Source: Saprospira sp. CCB-QB6
GTDB taxonomy: Bacteria; Bacteroidota; Bacteroidia; Chitinophagales; Saprospiraceae
Direction of reading: 5' to 3'
Length of the DNA: 64,000 nt
NCBI RefSeq assembly: GCF_028464065.1
Contig: NZ_CP116808.1
Coordinates: forward strand, 2,621,501 to 2,685,500
In this document: piece by piece, positions 1 through 53,786 of the stretch
Position numbering within the stretch: position 1 is the first letter of the stretch
Layout: the number at the start of each line of letters is the position of its first letter
Made by a program: the position numbers and the translations under genes
Notes under the pieces: model-generated
Databases searched by the model: none
Told to the model about the DNA's origin: nothing
Seen by the model: only the letters and a program-made list of their open reading frames with translations

Positions 1-381
1 GGCCGAGAGATCCAGAAAAACATTCAAAATATCAATCCTTCTCTGATGTTTGATCTGCGAAAATATCATAAGGCGGTTTGGGGCGAATTTGATGAGTTTC
101 GCAAGACCTTCATCTTTAATATGATGAAAAACAACATGGATCGAGGCATTGAAGAGGGCTTATATCGGCCTGATTTGAATGCGGATATTGTGAGTCGCTT
201 ATACATTGGAATGGTTGAGCTCTTTTTAGATGGGGAGCTTTTTCCGCCCGATAAGTTTTCGCGCTCTAGTATGCATCGGGCCATGATGGCTTATCATTTA
301 CACGGAATCGTTTCTGATAGAGGCAAAGCAAGCCTTAAAGACTACTTGAAACAACTAGAACAACTTTCTTCACCTTCTTAA
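1..381 (+). CDS. TetR/AcrR-type regulator, C-terminal part (5' truncated)
   Basis: The reading frame is open from the first base of the window, so the gene starts upstream and only about 126 C-terminal residues are visible. The DNA-binding N-terminal domain is missing. What remains is an all-helical ligand-binding and dimerisation domain with the pattern of TetR/AcrR regulators (acidic and aromatic helices, then a segment around GMVELFLDGELFPPDKFS). It ends 13 bases before a TolC gene and precedes a complete RND efflux operon in the same direction, the usual place for a local efflux repressor. The family call rests on helical pattern and context, because the helix-turn-helix cannot be seen. 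Confidence 0.72.
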   Translation, partial: GREIQKNIQNINPSLMFDLRKYHKAVWGEFDEFRKTFIFNMMKNNMDRGIEEGLYRPDLNADIVSRLYIGMVELFLDGELFPPDKFSRSSMHRAMMAYHLHGIVSDRGKASLKDYLKQLEQLSSPS

Positions 382-30148: not shown

Positions 30149-32509
30149 ATGAAACAAACGATTAGTTTCCTCTTAGCCCTTTGCTGTAGCTTTCCGCTAG
30201 TAGCACAACTTACAGTTACCTTAGACAGCACACAAGATGTGAGCTGTAATGGCAATAACGATGGGGCTGTTTTTGTCACGGCAGACCCTAATGGCTGTAG
30301 CTCAACTACAGTATTGATTAATGAGTTTTTAGTAAATGGACCTGGGGCAGGCGACGGAACAGGCTGTGGCGCCAATGGGGACCCTCTTTCAGAAGAATAT
30401 ATTGAGCTTATTGCTCCTGCTGGTACCGATTTGAGTTGTTATGTATTGACCGATGGCGACTGGATTTTGACACTACCCGCAGGGAGCATTGTCCCTGCCG
30501 ATGGCTTATTTACTATTGGCCATAATAACTCGCCTTTGCATATCACCAACGGAACTACCTTTGACTTAGATGTAGAAGGCTGCAACTGTATCGCTGATGT
30601 AGGCACCAGAGTTTGTCAAGATCTTATTTTTACCAATGGAGGAGAGTATTTGACGATGTATGATGCCAGCGGAACCTTTATTGATGGGGTAATTTATGGC
30701 AACCCGAGCGGCGTGAATAATACGCCCAGCCCAGGCGATATTATCAGCACCTCTGGTTTGACGGGTTGTGTTGGTAGCGTAACTATTCCTTCTTTGGCTA
30801 GCTATGCAACTATCAGTGTTTCTGGCGATGTATATCAGCGCGATCCTGACGGTAGCAGCACCTGGGCCGCAACTAGCAGCATGACGCCAAATGATTGTAA
30901 CAGTGGAGGAAGTGCTAATCTAAGCTTCCTTTGGTCTAATGGAGATACCACAGAAGACCTTTCTGGCTTGGCTGCAGGGACTTACACCCTAACCGTAACA
31001 GATAATAATGGAGCAACAGCTACCGTAAGCGCTACAATCAATGAGCCTACCGCTATTGTGGCCACTTCTAGCTTGACCGATCCCAACTGCCCTAACAGCT
31101 TGGATGGCGCTATTGATATTACCGTAAGCGGTGGAGCAAATGCCTATACTTTCGCTTGGTCGAATGGCGAAACAACAGAAGATTTGAGCAATGTTTCTGC
31201 AGGTACTTATAGCGTAACTATTACGGACACAACAGGCTGCGAATTGGTGGACAGCTATCAACTCAATACCCCCTCTGGTTTTGCCGTAGCCCTAGATGCT
31301 GCCGTTTCACCCCTCTGTAATGGCGATGCCAACGGAACAATTGATGTGACGGTAACGGGTGGCATTGCGCCAATTACTTACCTTTGGTCCAATACTGCTA
31401 CCACAGAAGACCTTAGCGCTTTGGCCGCTGGCACTTATGCCCTTACCGTGACCGATGGTAACGGCTGTACAGATACTCTCTCTGCCGTTTTGCAAGATCC
31501 CGCTGCTTTTACTCCTAGCTTCAATCTGCAAAATGCAAACTGTGAAAACAACAACGGTTTTATTGATTATACCCTAAGTGGTGGTACTGCTCCTTACAGC
31601 TATTTGTGGTCTACTGGCGATACCCTAGAAGACCTAGATAGCCTTGCCGCAGGTAGCTATACCCTAACGGTAACCGATGCCAATGCTTGTAGCTTCGCTA
31701 CTTCAACTGCAATTGTCGTGGGTATGGATACTACTTTCTCTATAGGAATGTCTTTTCAGTTGATAAACTGCCAAGCTCCTAACTCTGGAGGACTAGTTGC
31801 TGAACCTGATTTGGGCGCAAGTCCAATTAGCTATGCTTGGTCTACAGGAGATACTACAAGAGCGTTAACTAACCTGATTTCAGGCACTTATACCGTGACA
31901 GCTACCGATGCTTCTGGCTGTACTGATGAGTTCACGGCAACCTTGGGCGATCCTCAACAACCTACGCTTAACCCAAGTCTAGGCTATAGCAATCAAGTCG
32001 ATACCACTATGGATTTGGGAATTACAATTCCCGCCACTACGGGCGCCAATGAAGCTGGCGTAAGTTATAGCTGGACCTATAGCCCCGCAGCTGGCCTAAA
32101 TCTTAGCTCAGATACCCTAAGCGATATCGAATTGAGCGGCTTGGCTGTCGGAAATTACACAATTACCGTTACGGCTTCTTCCCTCAATGGCTGTGTCCTA
32201 AGCGAAACGCTTACGCTAGAAATTACAGAACAACCCGAACCTGCCGTACCTTCGGCCTTTACCCCCAATGGCGATAATATTAACCCCACTTTCCGCGCCC
32301 TCTATCTAGATGCGGCCTATGTGGACGAGTTTAAGATTTATAACCGCTGGGGCCAATTGGTCTACGATGATGCCAATAACCCCGTTTGGGACGGCACCAT
32401 CAATGGCAATGAACAAGCCCGCGATGTATATATCTACCGCATTAGCTACCAGCGCCCACAAGATAGCGAGCCCGTTGTGCTCCGTGGCGAAGTAACGCTT
32501 TTGCGCTAA
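30149..32509 (+). CDS. T9SS-exported protein with lamin-tail domain nested in SprB repeats
   Basis: A 786-residue predicted cell-surface protein. Residues 1-19 are a signal peptide (ending LVAQ). A SprB repeat starts at about 21 (LTVTLDSTQDVSCNGNNDGA) and is interrupted at about 52 by a lamin-tail-like domain (VLINEFLVNG, then YIELIAPAGTDLSCYVLTDG and GEYLTMYDASGTFIDGVIYG). The repeat resumes at about 252 with SFLWSNGDTTEDLSGLAAGT. Four more SprB repeats follow to about 690. The last 85 residues form a type B (gliding-motility) sorting domain: PSAFTPNGDNINPTF, IYNRWGQLVY and a final LRGEVTLLR. Export through SprA and surface anchoring are inferred from that domain. A strong terminator follows. 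Confidence 0.88.
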   Translation: MKQTISFLLALCCSFPLVAQLTVTLDSTQDVSCNGNNDGAVFVTADPNGCSSTTVLINEFLVNGPGAGDGTGCGANGDPLSEEYIELIAPAGTDLSCYVLTDGDWILTLPAGSIVPADGLFTIGHNNSPLHITNGTTFDLDVEGCNCIADVGTRVCQDLIFTNGGEYLTMYDASGTFIDGVIYGNPSGVNNTPSPGDIISTSGLTGCVGSVTIPSLASYATISVSGDVYQRDPDGSSTWAATSSMTPNDCNSGGSANLSFLWSNGDTTEDLSGLAAGTYTLTVTDNNGATATVSATINEPTAIVATSSLTDPNCPNSLDGAIDITVSGGANAYTFAWSNGETTEDLSNVSAGTYSVTITDTTGCELVDSYQLNTPSGFAVALDAAVSPLCNGDANGTIDVTVTGGIAPITYLWSNTATTEDLSALAAGTYALTVTDGNGCTDTLSAVLQDPAAFTPSFNLQNANCENNNGFIDYTLSGGTAPYSYLWSTGDTLEDLDSLAAGSYTLTVTDANACSFATSTAIVVGMDTTFSIGMSFQLINCQAPNSGGLVAEPDLGASPISYAWSTGDTTRALTNLISGTYTVTATDASGCTDEFTATLGDPQQPTLNPSLGYSNQVDTTMDLGITIPATTGANEAGVSYSWTYSPAAGLNLSSDTLSDIELSGLAVGNYTITVTASSLNGCVLSETLTLEITEQPEPAVPSAFTPNGDNINPTFRALYLDAAYVDEFKIYNRWGQLVYDDANNPVWDGTINGNEQARDVYIYRISYQRPQDSEPVVLRGEVTLLR

Positions 32510-45134: not shown

Positions 45135-48100
45135 ATGAGCTCCCCTTTACGATTAGTTTTTCGGTATTTTGCCGTTATTCTTCTCAGCCTGTTTTGTCTG
45201 CCACAGCTTTATGCTTCGCATGGAGTAGCCGTAGACTTAACCTATGAATGTATTGATCCTGCAATAGGGCAATATCAATTTACTTTGGTCTACTACCGAG
45301 ATTGTGATGGGATTACTCCCTCTGCCACCTCGCTTACTGTTTCAGGAGGAGCTGGTTGTGGAGTAAATAGTAACATTACGCTTAGTCAGGTTTCTGTAAC
45401 GGATCAATCACAGCTTTGTGACCCTAGTACTTCTAGCTGTAATGGTGGAAGTCAGCCAGGGGTAGAGCAATATATCTACCAAGGTGTCGCCACAATTGGT
45501 ACGGGTTGTTCTAATTTAGTCGTTAGCTTTAGTGAATGTTGTCGAACTTCGGCAATTACAAACTTAAGTAGTACAGGAACAACTTATGTAGAAACTGTAA
45601 TTAACTCGAATCACCCACAATGGGGGGCGCCTTGTAACAGCAGTCCTCAATTTGGACGAATTCCAGTATTGTATACTTGTGCTGGACAGCCTGCTTTTTA
45701 TAGCCATGATGCCCAAGATCCCGATGGAGACTCTTTGGTGTTTTCTATTTCTGAGCCTTTGGATGGAGCTAGCAGTAGTATTGCCTATAGTGCTGGTTTT
45801 TCTTCTACAGAGCCTTTTTGTACAAATAATACCTTTACTTTAGATCAAAGTACAGGACAGATTGCATTTACGCCTTGTGCCAACCAATCACAGTATGCTG
45901 TGGTTGGATTTACTATTGAAGAGTATCGCAATGGAACGTTGATCAATACAACGAGAAGAGAAGTTGTTATCGTAGTATTGAATAACTGTACAAATACCTC
46001 TTCTCAGGTAGATAGTTTTACTGTGAACCAAGGGGTGTTGGATACTACAGGTTTAGTTGCCGCTATCAATGTTTGTGGTGGAAACCAATTAGACCTCTGT
46101 CTTAATGTTTCGGACCCAGATGTTGTTGATTCTTTGTCAATTAGCTCTAATGTTGGAAGCATAATTCCTGGTGCAACTTATACTGTTACCTACCCTACCG
46201 CCAACTTTAATGAGGCGATAGTGTGTTTTACTATTCCAACAGATAGTGTTGCCACAGGATCTTATACCTTTGTTACTTTTATAGAAGATAATGCCTGTCC
46301 TATTTCAGCTCAGCAGGCTATATCTTACCGATTAGATTTGGAGAACCTGCAATTAGAGCTCAGTAAGGAGTTTATTTGCCCCAATAGTATAGATACAATT
46401 GGATTAGAGGCAATTGGTTTTGGTGGCGCATCGGCTCCAGGGACTTATTCTTGGTCTCCAGCTGCGCTCTTTGATAACCCCAACGTCTATAATCCGACTG
46501 CTTATGTTTTAGATACAGTGGATCTCATTTGTACTTATACAGATGGTTCATGTGTACAGCATGATACCGTAGAAGTTAGTGCACCTTTTCCAGCTGTAAT
46601 CAATCCGATTCCTGATGTAACGGTTTGTAATGGAAACTCTGCACAAGTATTTGCTTCTGTTCAGCCTGGCCCTGGGCCACAATCTTTTACACTTAGTGGA
46701 ACAGCAACCATTCAGCCTGACTCGATTTTAGATATTCCTATTAACACTTCTGGAATTGCTCCTGTAGATATCCTATCTACTTCTATTCAGTCTGTTTGTT
46801 TAGATATGAGTTGTGGAAATGGTTTTATAAGAGATCTTAATCTCTTTCTCATTTCTCCTACAGGCTGTGTTCTTCCTTTGATGAATGGTCAGGGAGGGAT
46901 TAACGATAAGGCATTAGCAGGGGTTTGCTTTACACCAGATGCTACTCAAGCTATTACTGCTTACAACACGCCCTTCTCAAATATTCCTGATAACTCTAGC
47001 TTTATTCCTGTAGGAGCCAATGGATTTGGTGGATTGAATGGCTGTGCGGCTAATGGACAGTGGGTGTTGCGGATTCAGCATAACCTTGCCCCTAGTTTAG
47101 GTGGAGTACCTTGTACTGTAACTAATTGGAGCATTACCTTCAATGACCAATCTGCAGCTAGTTTCTATTGGTCACCTAACTATAATATTAGCTGTACAAA
47201 TTGTGATAGCAGTATTATTTCACCAACTGTAGATACACAATATCAGGTTATCGCTCAGAATACCTTTGGATGTAGTGATACGACTAGCTTTAATGCAATA
47301 ATTGATACTGCTTATCCAGCACCTATCATTGTTTGTGATTCTGTTACAGCTACTGATGTATATTTTTCTTGGCAGCCTATTTTTGGCTCAGGTGGATATA
47401 GCATCAGTGTAAATGGAGGGCCAGCTTTTACACAGGCAGTTACTAATACAACTTATTCTGTGGGTGGCCTTACCCCAGGACAATGTGTAGATTTGACTAT
47501 CTATGCACTTTCTGGAGGAAGCTGCGCTGATGGACCTTCTACAACCCATTCTTGTTGTGCTTCGGGTTGTATTAACCCAATTACCTCTAGTACGCCCGCA
47601 AGTTGTAATGGCGCTTCAGATGGTACAGCTACAGTAGCTTTGACCTTTGCTACACCTCCTATTGTTTATCAGTGGGATGCTGCTGCTGCTAATCAAACAA
47701 CATCAACAGCTACAAACTTAGCGGCGGGAAGCTACTCGGTAACTATTTCAGAAGGTACGGGTTGTACAGCTACCGCAACAGTAGTTGTCTCAGAGCCTAC
47801 GGTTTTGCAAGTGACAAATGCAGTTAGTTCTAACTATAATGGTCAAGATGTTTCTTGTGCTACTGCCTCAGATGGAGAGGCCACCGCTACAGTTAATGGA
47901 GGTACAGCCCCTTACACTTATGTTTGGTCCAATGGTCAAGTATCGTCAACTGTTACTAACCTTACTGCGGGCATAGCTTGTTGTTTGACAGTAACAGATA
48001 ATAATGGATGTACAGCTACAGATTGTATTACGCTTACAGCTCCCACACCAATTAGCGCAACAACTACAACAACAGATGTAAATTGTTTTGGTGGTGCTGA

Positions 48101-51100
48101 TGGTACAGCCTCGGTAACAGCAATAGGAGGAACCGTTGCTGTAGATTATAGTTATAGCTGGAGCACTTCTCCAATGCAAACTACAGCTACTGCCACGGGC
48201 TTAGCAGCAGGAACTTATACCGTAACCATTACAGATGATAATGGTTGTAGCATAACAGAAACCGCTACAGTTATAGAACCAACAGCTACTGTAACAGCTA
48301 CTGCTGGAGTAATTTCAAATTATAATGGCCAAGATATCAGTTGTGCAGGTAGCTGCGATGGAGAAGCAGAAGTATTTCCTACAGGGGGGACACCTGCTAC
48401 TACGGGATATTTATACCTATGGCCTAATGGTCAAACAACGGCTATTGCAACGAACTTATGTGTAGGTACTTATAGTGTAACGGTAACAGATAGCTTAGGC
48501 TGCTCTGCTGTTACTTCTGTAACACTAACAGAACCTATCTCATTGCAATCTAATATGCAAAGTAGTACAGATGTAAGCTGTAATACAGGATCTGATGGTA
48601 CTGCTACTGTAGCAGTAACAAATGGTACCGCTCCTTATACTTATAACTGGAGTGATATTTTGGGACAGGCTACAGCTACAGCAACAAACCTTAGTGCAGG
48701 TCAATATTTTGTAACAATTACTGATATCAATGGCTGCCAAACGTTAGACTCTGTAGTTATTGGTGAACCTACTGCGGTAAGTGTTTCTTTGGCGGTAAAC
48801 TCAAACTACAATGGTCAAGATGTAAGTTGTAATGGAAGTAGTAATGGAGAAGTTATTGCCACAGCTGCAGGAGGTACTAGTGGTTATACATATTTATGGG
48901 ATGCCAATACTGGAAATCAAACTACAGCCGCAGTTACTGGCTTATCGGCAAATACGCCCTATTGTGTAACAGTTACTGATGCAAATGGCTGTACAACTAC
49001 AGATTGTATTACACTTACTGAGCCTACAGCTTTAACAGGCACAACAACTACTACCGATGCGCTTTGTTTTGGTGGAGCTGATGGTACTGCTACTGTGGTA
49101 TTAGCAGATGGAACGGCTCCTTATACTTATTTATGGAGTGACGCAAGTGCTCAAACTACACAGACTGCTACTGGCTTAGCAGCAGGGAGTTATAGTGTGA
49201 CTTGTGAAGATATAAATGGTTGCCAAATTGTTCTTACAGCTATAGTAGGAGAACCTGCTACTGCAGTTAGTGCAACTACAACTACTACCGATGCGCTTTG
49301 TTTTGGTAGTGCTGATGGAACAGTTACAGTTTTGCCTGTGGGAGGAACAGCTCCTTACACTTATTTATGGGATGCAACTACTGGAGGCCAAACTACACAA
49401 ACGGCTATTGGTCTAGCTACTGGAACTTATTGTGTGACAGTAACTGATGCACATGGTTGTACATTTACAATTTGTGAGACAGTAGCAGATGGGATTGCTA
49501 TCCAGTTAGCTACGACAACAACAGCAGCTCTTTGCTTTGGCAGTGCAGATGGTAGTGCGACAGTAACTGCAACTGGAGGAGCCTCTGGCTACAGCTATCT
49601 TTGGTCTACAGCTGCATCGAGTCAAATTACAGCAACAGCTACTGGCTTAGTAGCAGGTTCTTATGATGTGACCGTGACAGACGCCAACGGTTGCGCTGTG
49701 GATACAACTGTGGTTGTAAATGAGCCTACTGCGTTGACAAATCCCACATTCAATAGTACAACAATTAGCTGTAATGGCTTGACCGATGGAACAGCAACAG
49801 TTAGTACTACAGGAGGTACTCAACCTTATACATACCTTTGGGATAATGGACAGACGACACAAACAGCAACAGGTCTAGCTTCAGGTATGGAGTCCGTAAC
49901 TATTACAGACGCTAATGGCTGTTTTATTATTGATAGTGTAAATATTACTGAACCAACGCCAATTGTTTCTACTCTAGTAGCTGATTCGATCAGCTGTTAT
50001 GGACTTAACAATGGACAGATTACAGCAACAACAACGGGTGGTCAACCCCCTTATACATACAACTGGTCTAATAGCCAATCAGGCTTCCAAATCAGTAACT
50101 TGTTAACAGGCCCTTATGATGTGACAGTAACTGATGCTAATGGTTGCTCAGTAACTTTAAGTGCCTTTGTTGGTGAACCTGCTTCGGCTGTTGTGGTAAA
50201 TATCATTAACCCTGTGAATCCTATTTGCGCAGGAGATAGTGATGGAGAAATGACAGCAGATGCGTTGGGGGGAACGCCCAACTACACTTTTGTCTGGTCT
50301 GATGGACAAACTACTGCTACTGCAGATGGTTTGGCACCAGATACATACGCTGTAACTGCTACAGATGCTAGAGGTTGTATGGCTTCTGCTTCAGCTACTA
50401 TTACAGCACCATCTCCAATCGTACTCAACGTCCAACAATACTCTAATTACAATGGAGCAGCGATTAGCTGTCCAGGAGCCTCGGATGGAGCGGCACAGGT
50501 GACGGCCAGTGGAGGCGTATCGCCTTATGTATATGCATGGTCTGGTCCACAGGCGCAGAATGGTACGCTTGCGACGAACTTGGCGGCAGGGACTTATGCG
50601 GTAACGGTGACGGATGCCTCTGGCTGTACGGCAATAGATAGTATTAGTTTGGCGGATCCTGTACCTTTGGATGCGACAATCCAGCAGGTGAATGTCTTTT
50701 GTGCCAATGATTGTGATGGACAGATTATCGCTACGGCCGTATCTGGCACAGGAACGCTAGGTGTTAATGGCTATGAATACCGAATATTAGGTCCTGGTCA
50801 AACGGGTAATGTATTCAGTAGCAATAATAACTTTACGGGCCTTTGTGCAGGGACTTACACGGTAGAGGTTCGTGATGGGAATAACTGTGTGTTGCCTGTA
50901 TCGGTAACGATTACGGAGCCAACAGCCATACAGTTGAGTCTGAGTGATACAGATGTGTCTTGTTCAGGAGGTAGCGATGGAACGGCTACGGTAAGTGCAA
51001 CAGGCGGAACGGCTCCATATAGCTACAACTGGGATAATGGGATGACTGCTGCGACGATTACAGGCCTATTGGCGGGTACTTATGAAGTGACGGTAACGGA

Positions 51101-53786
51101 TGCGAATGGCTGTGATATGGTATCGACTACAGAAGTAGAAGAGCCAGCAGCGTTAACAGCGAGTATGAGTGGGAATGAACCTAGCTGTAATGGAAGTACA
51201 GATGGAACTGTAGCCGTAATGGTTCAAGGAGGTACGCTTCCTTACACTTACTTCTGGTCAGATGGCCAAGGAACGGCTACGGCCGTGGGCTTGTCAGCGG
51301 GCACACATAGTGTGACGGTAACAGATGGGAATGCTTGTCAGCTTGTAGAAAGCTATGTTCTAGGCGAGCCTACATTGCTGACAACCAGCATTACGACTAA
51401 TGCGGCAGCCTGTGCTGGAGCGAATAGTGGAAGTGCAACAGCGGTACCGACAGGAGGCACGGCCCCATATACTTACCTTTGGTCAGATGGTCAAACGACA
51501 GCGACTGCGACGAACTTGGCGCCAGGTGCTTATTCGGTAGTGGTTGTGGATAGCCAAGGCTGTTCGGTAACGGATCAGGTTTTATTGCAAAATCCCGATC
51601 CAGTAGTATTGAGCTTTGTCTCAAGTGTGAATCCGAGCTGTCATGGAGATATGGATGGAAGTGCAACGGTAGTTGCTACAGGAGGGGCAGCCCCCTATAG
51701 CTATGCTTGGCCCAATGGCGAGATGACAGCTAGTGCTACAAGTTTAGCAGGCGGACAGCATACGGTAACGGCTACAGATGCGAATGGTTGTAGTACGACC
51801 TTAACGGTGAACTTGGTAGAGCCCGCGCTCTTGGTTGTCGATACGATTCGGACGACAGGGGTGAATTGTAAAGGGGGCTCAGATGGTACAGCGACGGCCT
51901 TCTTGACAGGGGGAACGCTACCTTATAGCTTTGCATGGTCCAATGGCATGACGGGTCAAAGTATTAGCGGTTTGGCCGCAGGTACTTATGTGTTGACGGT
52001 AACGGATGCGAATGGTTGTCAGACGCTTAGTCAGGTGATTGTCATGGAGCCAACAAGTGCTTTAGTAGCGACATTGAATACAGCAGATGCCCTATGTTTT
52101 GGAGGTGCTTCTGGTCAAATTACGGCCATTGTGAGTGGGGGTACGCCCAATAGTAATGGAGACTATACTTATGCTTGGTCGAATGGAGCGAGTACAGATG
52201 TAAACTCGAACTTGAGTATAGGAACCTATAGTGTGACAATCACGGATGGGAATGGCTGTTCCGTGGTCCGTACAGCAACAGTGAACGAGAGTTCAGGAAT
52301 CACGAGCCAGATCGTGAATGTAACGGATGCCAGTTGTGCAGGTAGCGCAGATGGAAGTGCACAGGTAACAGCTTCAGGGGGAACAGGGACCTTGAGCTAT
52401 CAGTGGTCAGATCCCTTGGGTCAGACGACGAATGTAGCGACGGGTCTATCTGCAGGGACTTATTATGTGAGTGTAACGGATCTGAATGGCTGTACGCAGG
52501 TAGATACGGCTGTAGTGGGAGAGGCCTTGGCCTTGAGCATTACGGTAGCGATAGAAGATGCCTCTTGTTATGGAGAGTCTACAGGTTCTATAAGCATAAC
52601 GAACTCGAATGAGCCTTTGCAGGCGAGCTATTGGAGTAATGGCGTTGTAGGAACGAGCATTACGAATGTAGCGGCAGGCGAGTACGAAGTAGTGGTCCAG
52701 TCGATCAATGGTTGTGTGGATAGCTTTAGCTATGTGGTAGGCGAGCCTTCGGAATTGTCGGTGAGCTTGAACCAAGTACGGGCAGTAGATTGCTACAATA
52801 ACAGTACAGGCGCCTTAGGTTCTACAGTAGAAGGCGGAATATCACCTTATGTTTATATCTGGTCGAATGGGTTGGCAACGCCAAGCTTAGACAGCATAGC
52901 TGCGGGCAACTATACGCTTAATGTGGAAGATGCGAATGGCTGTAAGGCAGATACGAGCATCAATTTGGCGAATCCGACGGAAGTAGGTATTGGCAACCTC
53001 AGTATTAGAGGCGTAGCCTGTGTGGATGATGCGAACGGAAGTATCCAAGTAGATGGAATTGGTGGCTCGACCCTATTGGGGGGCTACACTTACAGTTTGG
53101 ATAGTGTAAACTTTACAGGAGGCAATCTTTTTGTTGGTTTGGAGTCGGGAATTTATCCTTTGTATATCCGAGACAATAATGGTTGTATGTATGATACGCT
53201 AGTAACAGTAGAGGCGGCAGATCCATTCTTCCTGACGAGCTTTGGTCCAGCCTTAGATTCAGGCGAAGTGGAGTATGTGTTGGAGTATGGAGATACGTTG
53301 ACGCTATTTGCAGACTTGAATGATACGACTGGGGCGATTTGGGCTTGGACAGAGATTAACTCTGGGGCATTGGTGGATAGCAGTTTGACGACTTCACTGA
53401 CGCCTTATGATGCGGGCATTTATCAGTTTACGGCCACGAATGCTTCGGGCTGTGTTCAGGATAGCTCGATTGTGGTGAAGATGGTTAAACCTAGAAATGC
53501 AGCAGCCCCTACGGCCTTTACGCCGAACAGTGATGGGAATAATGATCGTTTCTTTGTTCAAGCTGATGAAAAGGTAGAGCAGATTCTAAGCTTTAGAGTC
53601 TATGACCGCTGGGGCGAATTGGTGTATGAGGGCTTGAACCTTGATCCGAATGATCCTTTACAGGGTTGGGATGGTAGCTTTAAGGGCAAACCAATGAACT
53701 CTGGAACCTTTGCTTGGTCTGCAGAAGTGCTCTATATTGATGGAGAGACGACTGTGATTAAGGGCGCAGTGAATTTGCTTCGCTAG
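45135..53786 (+). CDS. Giant T9SS-exported adhesin with about 24 SprB repeats
   Basis: A 2,883-residue predicted surface protein. Residues 1-28 are a signal peptide (ending LYA). An N-terminal module (about 30-285) with FSECCRTSAITNLSS is followed by beta domains, a P/Homo-B-like domain (about 510-670, ending WSITFND) and a fibronectin-III-like domain (about 735-808). About 24 SprB repeats of 74-86 residues run from 820 to 2690, each with a C-x-G-x-x-D-G start, Y-x-W-S-x-G centre and V-T-x-T-D-x-N-G-C end. Residues 2787-2883 are a type B sorting domain (PTAFTPNSDGNNDRF, YDRWGELVYEG). By analogy with SprB it may act in gliding or adhesion. A strong terminator follows. Confidence 0.93.
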   Translation: MSSPLRLVFRYFAVILLSLFCLPQLYASHGVAVDLTYECIDPAIGQYQFTLVYYRDCDGITPSATSLTVSGGAGCGVNSNITLSQVSVTDQSQLCDPSTSSCNGGSQPGVEQYIYQGVATIGTGCSNLVVSFSECCRTSAITNLSSTGTTYVETVINSNHPQWGAPCNSSPQFGRIPVLYTCAGQPAFYSHDAQDPDGDSLVFSISEPLDGASSSIAYSAGFSSTEPFCTNNTFTLDQSTGQIAFTPCANQSQYAVVGFTIEEYRNGTLINTTRREVVIVVLNNCTNTSSQVDSFTVNQGVLDTTGLVAAINVCGGNQLDLCLNVSDPDVVDSLSISSNVGSIIPGATYTVTYPTANFNEAIVCFTIPTDSVATGSYTFVTFIEDNACPISAQQAISYRLDLENLQLELSKEFICPNSIDTIGLEAIGFGGASAPGTYSWSPAALFDNPNVYNPTAYVLDTVDLICTYTDGSCVQHDTVEVSAPFPAVINPIPDVTVCNGNSAQVFASVQPGPGPQSFTLSGTATIQPDSILDIPINTSGIAPVDILSTSIQSVCLDMSCGNGFIRDLNLFLISPTGCVLPLMNGQGGINDKALAGVCFTPDATQAITAYNTPFSNIPDNSSFIPVGANGFGGLNGCAANGQWVLRIQHNLAPSLGGVPCTVTNWSITFNDQSAASFYWSPNYNISCTNCDSSIISPTVDTQYQVIAQNTFGCSDTTSFNAIIDTAYPAPIIVCDSVTATDVYFSWQPIFGSGGYSISVNGGPAFTQAVTNTTYSVGGLTPGQCVDLTIYALSGGSCADGPSTTHSCCASGCINPITSSTPASCNGASDGTATVALTFATPPIVYQWDAAAANQTTSTATNLAAGSYSVTISEGTGCTATATVVVSEPTVLQVTNAVSSNYNGQDVSCATASDGEATATVNGGTAPYTYVWSNGQVSSTVTNLTAGIACCLTVTDNNGCTATDCITLTAPTPISATTTTTDVNCFGGADGTASVTAIGGTVAVDYSYSWSTSPMQTTATATGLAAGTYTVTITDDNGCSITETATVIEPTATVTATAGVISNYNGQDISCAGSCDGEAEVFPTGGTPATTGYLYLWPNGQTTAIATNLCVGTYSVTVTDSLGCSAVTSVTLTEPISLQSNMQSSTDVSCNTGSDGTATVAVTNGTAPYTYNWSDILGQATATATNLSAGQYFVTITDINGCQTLDSVVIGEPTAVSVSLAVNSNYNGQDVSCNGSSNGEVIATAAGGTSGYTYLWDANTGNQTTAAVTGLSANTPYCVTVTDANGCTTTDCITLTEPTALTGTTTTTDALCFGGADGTATVVLADGTAPYTYLWSDASAQTTQTATGLAAGSYSVTCEDINGCQIVLTAIVGEPATAVSATTTTTDALCFGSADGTVTVLPVGGTAPYTYLWDATTGGQTTQTAIGLATGTYCVTVTDAHGCTFTICETVADGIAIQLATTTTAALCFGSADGSATVTATGGASGYSYLWSTAASSQITATATGLVAGSYDVTVTDANGCAVDTTVVVNEPTALTNPTFNSTTISCNGLTDGTATVSTTGGTQPYTYLWDNGQTTQTATGLASGMESVTITDANGCFIIDSVNITEPTPIVSTLVADSISCYGLNNGQITATTTGGQPPYTYNWSNSQSGFQISNLLTGPYDVTVTDANGCSVTLSAFVGEPASAVVVNIINPVNPICAGDSDGEMTADALGGTPNYTFVWSDGQTTATADGLAPDTYAVTATDARGCMASASATITAPSPIVLNVQQYSNYNGAAISCPGASDGAAQVTASGGVSPYVYAWSGPQAQNGTLATNLAAGTYAVTVTDASGCTAIDSISLADPVPLDATIQQVNVFCANDCDGQIIATAVSGTGTLGVNGYEYRILGPGQTGNVFSSNNNFTGLCAGTYTVEVRDGNNCVLPVSVTITEPTAIQLSLSDTDVSCSGGSDGTATVSATGGTAPYSYNWDNGMTAATITGLLAGTYEVTVTDANGCDMVSTTEVEEPAALTASMSGNEPSCNGSTDGTVAVMVQGGTLPYTYFWSDGQGTATAVGLSAGTHSVTVTDGNACQLVESYVLGEPTLLTTSITTNAAACAGANSGSATAVPTGGTAPYTYLWSDGQTTATATNLAPGAYSVVVVDSQGCSVTDQVLLQNPDPVVLSFVSSVNPSCHGDMDGSATVVATGGAAPYSYAWPNGEMTASATSLAGGQHTVTATDANGCSTTLTVNLVEPALLVVDTIRTTGVNCKGGSDGTATAFLTGGTLPYSFAWSNGMTGQSISGLAAGTYVLTVTDANGCQTLSQVIVMEPTSALVATLNTADALCFGGASGQITAIVSGGTPNSNGDYTYAWSNGASTDVNSNLSIGTYSVTITDGNGCSVVRTATVNESSGITSQIVNVTDASCAGSADGSAQVTASGGTGTLSYQWSDPLGQTTNVATGLSAGTYYVSVTDLNGCTQVDTAVVGEALALSITVAIEDASCYGESTGSISITNSNEPLQASYWSNGVVGTSITNVAAGEYEVVVQSINGCVDSFSYVVGEPSELSVSLNQVRAVDCYNNSTGALGSTVEGGISPYVYIWSNGLATPSLDSIAAGNYTLNVEDANGCKADTSINLANPTEVGIGNLSIRGVACVDDANGSIQVDGIGGSTLLGGYTYSLDSVNFTGGNLFVGLESGIYPLYIRDNNGCMYDTLVTVEAADPFFLTSFGPALDSGEVEYVLEYGDTLTLFADLNDTTGAIWAWTEINSGALVDSSLTTSLTPYDAGIYQFTATNASGCVQDSSIVVKMVKPRNAAAPTAFTPNSDGNNDRFFVQADEKVEQILSFRVYDRWGELVYEGLNLDPNDPLQGWDGSFKGKPMNSGTFAWSAEVLYIDGETTVIKGAVNLLR

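Follow-up and report, generated by a model that had tools for sequence, protein, structure and literature searches.

A predicted lamin tail-fold domain nested within a SprB repeat of a putative type IX-secreted surface protein of Saprospira sp. CCB-QB6

Saprospira sp. CCB-QB6 is a gliding marine bacterium and a relative of Saprospira grandis. A 64,000-nucleotide stretch of its genome, referred to here as the window, contains an open reading frame for a 786-residue protein with five SprB repeats, the first of which is interrupted by a domain related to the lamin tail domain (LTD) (Table 1). The C-terminal sorting domain, of type B of the type IX secretion system (T9SS), scored above the thresholds of both families that recognize it (35 bits for TIGR04131 and 27 bits for PF13585). 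Pfam and NCBIfam scans of the protein returned no match to RTX families, the T9SS signal being present instead, and no nuclease or other DNA-related domain. In a viral profile scan, the sorting domain was the sole match, and a viral structure search gave Ig-like matches with poor rmsd. The window also encodes, at 45135-53786 on the forward strand, a SprB-repeat protein of 2883 residues that contains 24 full repeats. Elsewhere in the genome, two giant proteins (G000:C1:912589 and 673671) have scores against the 786-residue protein almost equal to that of the 2883-residue protein and are therefore probably paralogues.

Table 1. Features of the 786-residue protein (positions are those of the window)
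Feature	Residues	Positions	Strand	Evidence
Open reading frame, putative T9SS cargo surface protein with nested domain	786 aa	30149..32509	+	Sequence; TIGR04131 47.1 bits
Signal-peptide-like N terminus, MKQTISFLLALCCSFPLVAQ	1-20	30149..30208	+	By inspection
SprB repeat 1, N-terminal part, two strands	21-49	30209..30295	+	HMM positions 4-25; model strands E2-9, E19-26, pLDDT 86-90
Nested domain, predicted LTD fold	50-251	30296..30901	+	Sub-threshold Pfam LTD; fold match to lamin LTDs and 4q1z; subfamily profile
Neck Cys50, insert residue 1	50	30296..30298	+	Invariant in nested-unit alignment
Neck Cys250, second-last insert residue	250	30896..30898	+	Invariant in nested-unit alignment
SprB repeat 1, C-terminal part, four strands	252-300	30902..31048	+	HMM positions 26-75; model strands E239-242, E251-254, E257-264, E270-277
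SprB repeat 2, intact, internal control in model	301-376	31049..31276	+	96.7 bits; six strands E284-352
SprB repeats 3-5, intact	377-603	31277..31957	+	91.8, 65.6 and 60.6 bits; PF13573 five stretches
PKD-like domain	about 604-692	31958..32224	+	K319L-like_PKD at 635-681
CHU_C / type B T9SS sorting domain	700-786	32246..32506	+	PF13585 48.2 bits; TIGR04131 47.1 bits

Inspection of repeat 1 reveals a SprB sequence that starts with LTVTLDSTQDVSCNGNNDGAVFVTADPNG, gives way to an insert of 202 residues (CSSTTVLINEF...TPNDCN), and resumes with SGGSANLSFLWSNGDTTEDLSGLAAGTYTLTVTD. A sequence-only reading of this locus had described a repeat broken at the loop where others read GGTAPY and resuming about 200 residues later; both this description and its coordinates match the sequence, the break point being the GGxxPY loop at HMM position 20/21 of 70. 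When the insert was removed in silico, the rejoined repeat matched PF13573 at 35.2 bits (cut-off, 28) over profile positions 3-37 of 37. An HMM of the SprB repeats of the same genome scored it at 81.5 bits as a single domain, with 19.6 and 61.3 bits for the N- and C-terminal pieces, respectively. Only one of the about 210 repeats in the genome is split, the other ∼209 being full. An automatic scan over all loci recovered 11 split repeats and 490 distinct full ones, and all 11 were broken at HMM positions 19-25 of 70 with an LTD inside; a twelfth match lies within an LTD and was discarded as an artefact. In the split repeat of Saprospira, the second conserved SprB cysteine is lost (NGA/NGT for NGC, at about 31010-31020 of the window) and the first is kept; most nested repeats other than those of Saprospira retain both.

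The insert had also been read as an LTD from its sequence pattern, an assignment that stands by fold and falls short at the curated cut-off of Pfam. Matches to the Pfam LTD family (PF00932) reached 16.7-22.7 bits, including 21.3 bits for the isolated domain and 22.7 bits for a relative, against a curated cut-off of 34.3 bits. By contrast, residues 33-168 of the first structural model (described below) superposed on the LTDs of lamins A/B with Z scores of 7.3-8.6 over 98-107 residues, and residues 33-232 superposed on the Bacteroides protein BT_1938 (4q1z) with a Z score of 10.5. The insert is therefore predicted to represent a divergent LTD-fold subfamily, weakly so by sequence and positively so by modeled fold, and, because its score lies under the curated cut-off, it is named here an LTD-fold domain and not a member of the Pfam family. 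The subfamily is about 200 residues long with a cysteine pattern of its own, and its profile finds only this insert in the genome, in which seven other LTD matches lie above the Pfam cut-off. In the PDB, the LTD profile matched by sequence the designed “Cake” and “Scone” proteins, with no single stretch over the cut-off; these matches were set aside.

The sequence-only reading had proposed a search for the same nesting in other Bacteroidota, and the arrangement was found again, at the same insertion site, in 17 genomes from four genera of Saprospiraceae, as read from the flanks. The nested unit is 90-91% identical to its S. grandis orthologues and adjoins miaA in two genomes; in Aureispira and other Saprospiraceae, identity is 43-51%. 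Several Aureispira proteins carry a split repeat within an array of intact repeats, and one 1626-residue protein has two split repeats. A phylum-wide profile of the whole nested unit gave matches that were swamped by ordinary SprB repeats. Comparison of the LTD between Saprospira sp. and S. grandis yielded a dN of about 0.057 and a dS of 0.76-0.88 (dN/dS about 0.07); the domain is under purifying selection. The S. grandis orthologues themselves (L076 and L077; 707-708 residues) are shorter by about one SprB repeat, so that the number of repeats differs between orthologues that all retain the nested unit.

Two AlphaFold2 models were obtained, one of residues 21-300 (model 1) and one of residues 21-376, which includes the next intact repeat as a control (model 2). 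Both derive from shallow alignments of 10 sequences, with pTM values of 0.56-0.67 (0.56 for model 2). Model 1 is of moderate confidence, with the N-terminal piece in blocks of pLDDT 45-60, whereas in model 2 this piece has a pLDDT of 86-90 and most of the C-terminal part about 93. The split repeat in model 2 comprises strands 2-9 and 19-26 ahead of the insert and 239-242, 251-254, 257-264, and 270-277 after it. The intact neighbor comprises strands 284-290, 300-307, 314-317, 326-329, 332-339, and 345-352. The same six strands thus occur in the same order in both repeats, which places the LTD between strands 2 and 3. In structural comparisons, PKD and Ig domains aligned to model 1 over 61-71 residues (65-71 for PKD) within the range 1..279, more than the 48-residue C-terminal piece alone can supply.

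Sequence, conservation in relatives, and both models agree on an LTD nested within the SprB repeat, as originally suggested, and SprB repeat 1 is very probably a split domain that houses a nested LTD-fold domain. The same data could in principle be read as two sequential domains, in which residues 21-46 would be a linker or a remnant and the C-terminal piece would be a repeat cut short. The N-terminal piece is indeed short (about 25 residues), scores only 10-20 bits alone, and is poorly defined in model 1. Nevertheless, in every nested case detected it covers precisely the HMM positions that are otherwise absent, its core is kept in the relatives at 43-51% identity, and it packs as strands 1 and 2 in the better model, model 2; the extent of the PKD matches on model 1 points the same way. 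Two sequential domains with an unpacked N-terminal piece, the outcome that the sequence-only reading had named as fatal to nesting, were absent from the models, and this alternative is considered highly improbable.

Alignment of the nested units shows that Cys50 and Cys250, at either end of the insert, are invariant, and a disulfide between them that clamps the neck of the LTD is a reasonable inference. A second Saprospiraceae domain, unnamed and without a Pfam match, also houses nested members of the LTD subfamily; termed host 2, it has the pattern C..CP...WYY...F.PY.GEGT...IP before the LTD and P...CNQT.Y..GII.P....C after it. Host 2 copies with a nested LTD include L084, L056, and L165, and uninterrupted copies, which represent the empty site, are found in L191 (78.9 bits over 2-117, 105 residues) and L192; L057 failed the HMM test as a further uninterrupted copy. 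In other genomes, the same site of host 2 is occupied by another domain, about 185 residues long (IDACGPEAANEFMVFDAGGGF...; L200-L207 and L210). This domain is not recognizable as a divergent LTD (3.5% probability in profile comparison and no Pfam match) and is left unassigned; by sequence comparison, kinship between host 2 itself and SprB has a probability of 0.1%.

A tree of 56 LTDs placed the SprB-nested domains and 14 of those nested in host 2 in one clade (support 97/91), with the simple N-terminal, non-nested LTDs outside it. The LTD has therefore switched host at least once. Although the tree mixes both hosts, a single SprB origin was not rejected (AU p 0.39), so repeated transfers are not asserted and only one is claimed; more than one change of host is possible. 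The neck cysteine pair is present in 30 of the 32 LTDs of the nested clade, the other two being cut by contig ends; seven host-2-nested LTDs outside the clade have neither cysteine, and only one of 15 N-terminal LTDs has both. The pair is thus the trait of a single clade, and its many copies reflect one evolutionary event and are not independent; it was not used as independent evidence of nesting. At L165, L166, L151, and L156, one protein combines an N-terminal, non-nested LTD that lacks the pair with a host-2-nested LTD that has it.

The following model is proposed. The gene product would be a cell-surface protein exported by the T9SS, with a stalk formed by a short chain of SprB (PKD/Ig-like) repeats. 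In repeat 1, the chain would exit after strand 2, form the self-contained LTD-fold domain, and return for strands 3-6. Because its two termini are anchored in a single loop, the LTD would project sideways from the stalk, with the putative Cys50-Cys250 disulfide clamping its neck. The free face of the LTD may then bind a ligand, such as a glycan, extracellular DNA, or the surface of another cell, in which case the protein would work as an adhesin or surface-recognition protein.

That the LTD serves as a ligand-binding head, as the term “binding head” in the sequence-only reading implied, is favored here as the likelier role, although with less assurance than the nested anatomy. The domain might instead be a structural spacer or passive elaboration, given that bacterial LTDs have no settled function and that ExeM can largely dispense with its LTD in degrading extracellular DNA (PMC6085458). 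Strong conservation of the LTD between hosts and its low dN/dS argue against a passive role, and the display of a different domain at the equivalent site of host 2 in other genomes fits interchangeable heads better than a spacer; the spacer is accordingly judged rather unlikely. A special case of the head model, in which the LTD binds extracellular DNA, draws on the fusion of LTDs to secreted nucleases and on the treatment of the Lamin tail domain as DNA-binding-associated (PMC4486849). The 786-residue protein has no nuclease or other DNA-related domain, however, and the authors of the ExeM study regard the role of its LTD as open (PMC6085458), so that DNA as the specific ligand appears less probable still.

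A broader reading is advanced tentatively, as one that may well prove wrong: Saprospiraceae may possess a general T9SS display system in which at least two sequence-unrelated split scaffolds, the SprB repeat and host 2, carry interchangeable recognition heads on a loop. The heads would be the LTD with its disulfide-clamped neck and the domain of about 185 residues found in host 2, the LTD having moved between scaffolds. T9SS surface proteins, a very large class that for the most part lacks annotation, serve Bacteroidota in gliding, prey capture, and polymer use. For bacterial LTDs, the role of which is unsettled, the nested unit offers a concrete hypothesis and a clean construct, and two families without a name, host 2 and the second insert that it carries, emerge from the analysis.

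Among known systems, the protein resembles SprB and the SprB-repeat surface proteins of gliding Bacteroidota in its PF13573 repeats and in belonging to a T9SS-exported surface class. It differs in its split repeat, the remaining repeats of the genome being unsplit, and in its length, as giant proteins of the SprB type span thousands of residues. The split repeat and its neighbor, with the LTD looped out, superposed as a tandem pair on the Ig-like domains of GhpA, the grappling-hook protein of Aureispira sp. CCB-QB1 (9g8b, 9flx, and 9flw), over 138-140 residues with Z scores of 8.1-9.0 (model range 1..356). This likeness to GhpA is one of fold only; close homologues of the nested unit are present in Aureispira. 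With ExeM and the lamins, the insert shares the LTD fold (Z about 8 to lamins), whereas the LTD of ExeM is N-terminal and not nested (PMC6085458) and the subfamily described here differs in its length, cysteine pattern, and sub-threshold Pfam score.

The closest parallel is with RTX adhesins, in which ligand-binding domains emerge from split Ig-like domains and point away from the axis of the stalk, as in the PA14 domain of MpIBP, the PBD and SBD of FrhA, and the CBM of AhLap (PMC12077191, PMC10865825). The sequence-only reading had not known such a layout as described. In its general form it is established by these adhesins, and it is the LTD/SprB/T9SS version that appears to be undescribed: in a term search, neither PMC12077191 nor PMC10865825 mentioned Bacteroidota or type IX secretion, and PMC12077191 did not mention lamin; a literature search of partial coverage found nothing on lamin tail domains with type IX secretion, with Saprospira, or with domain insertion. 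In RTX adhesins, split domains have already served as a guide to ligand-binding heads, a rule that would extend to T9SS surface proteins. In both systems, a self-contained domain interrupts an Ig-like domain of the stalk; the RTX modules are type I secreted, whereas the Saprospira protein combines a SprB repeat as host, a T9SS signal, and an LTD-fold head for which binding is putative.
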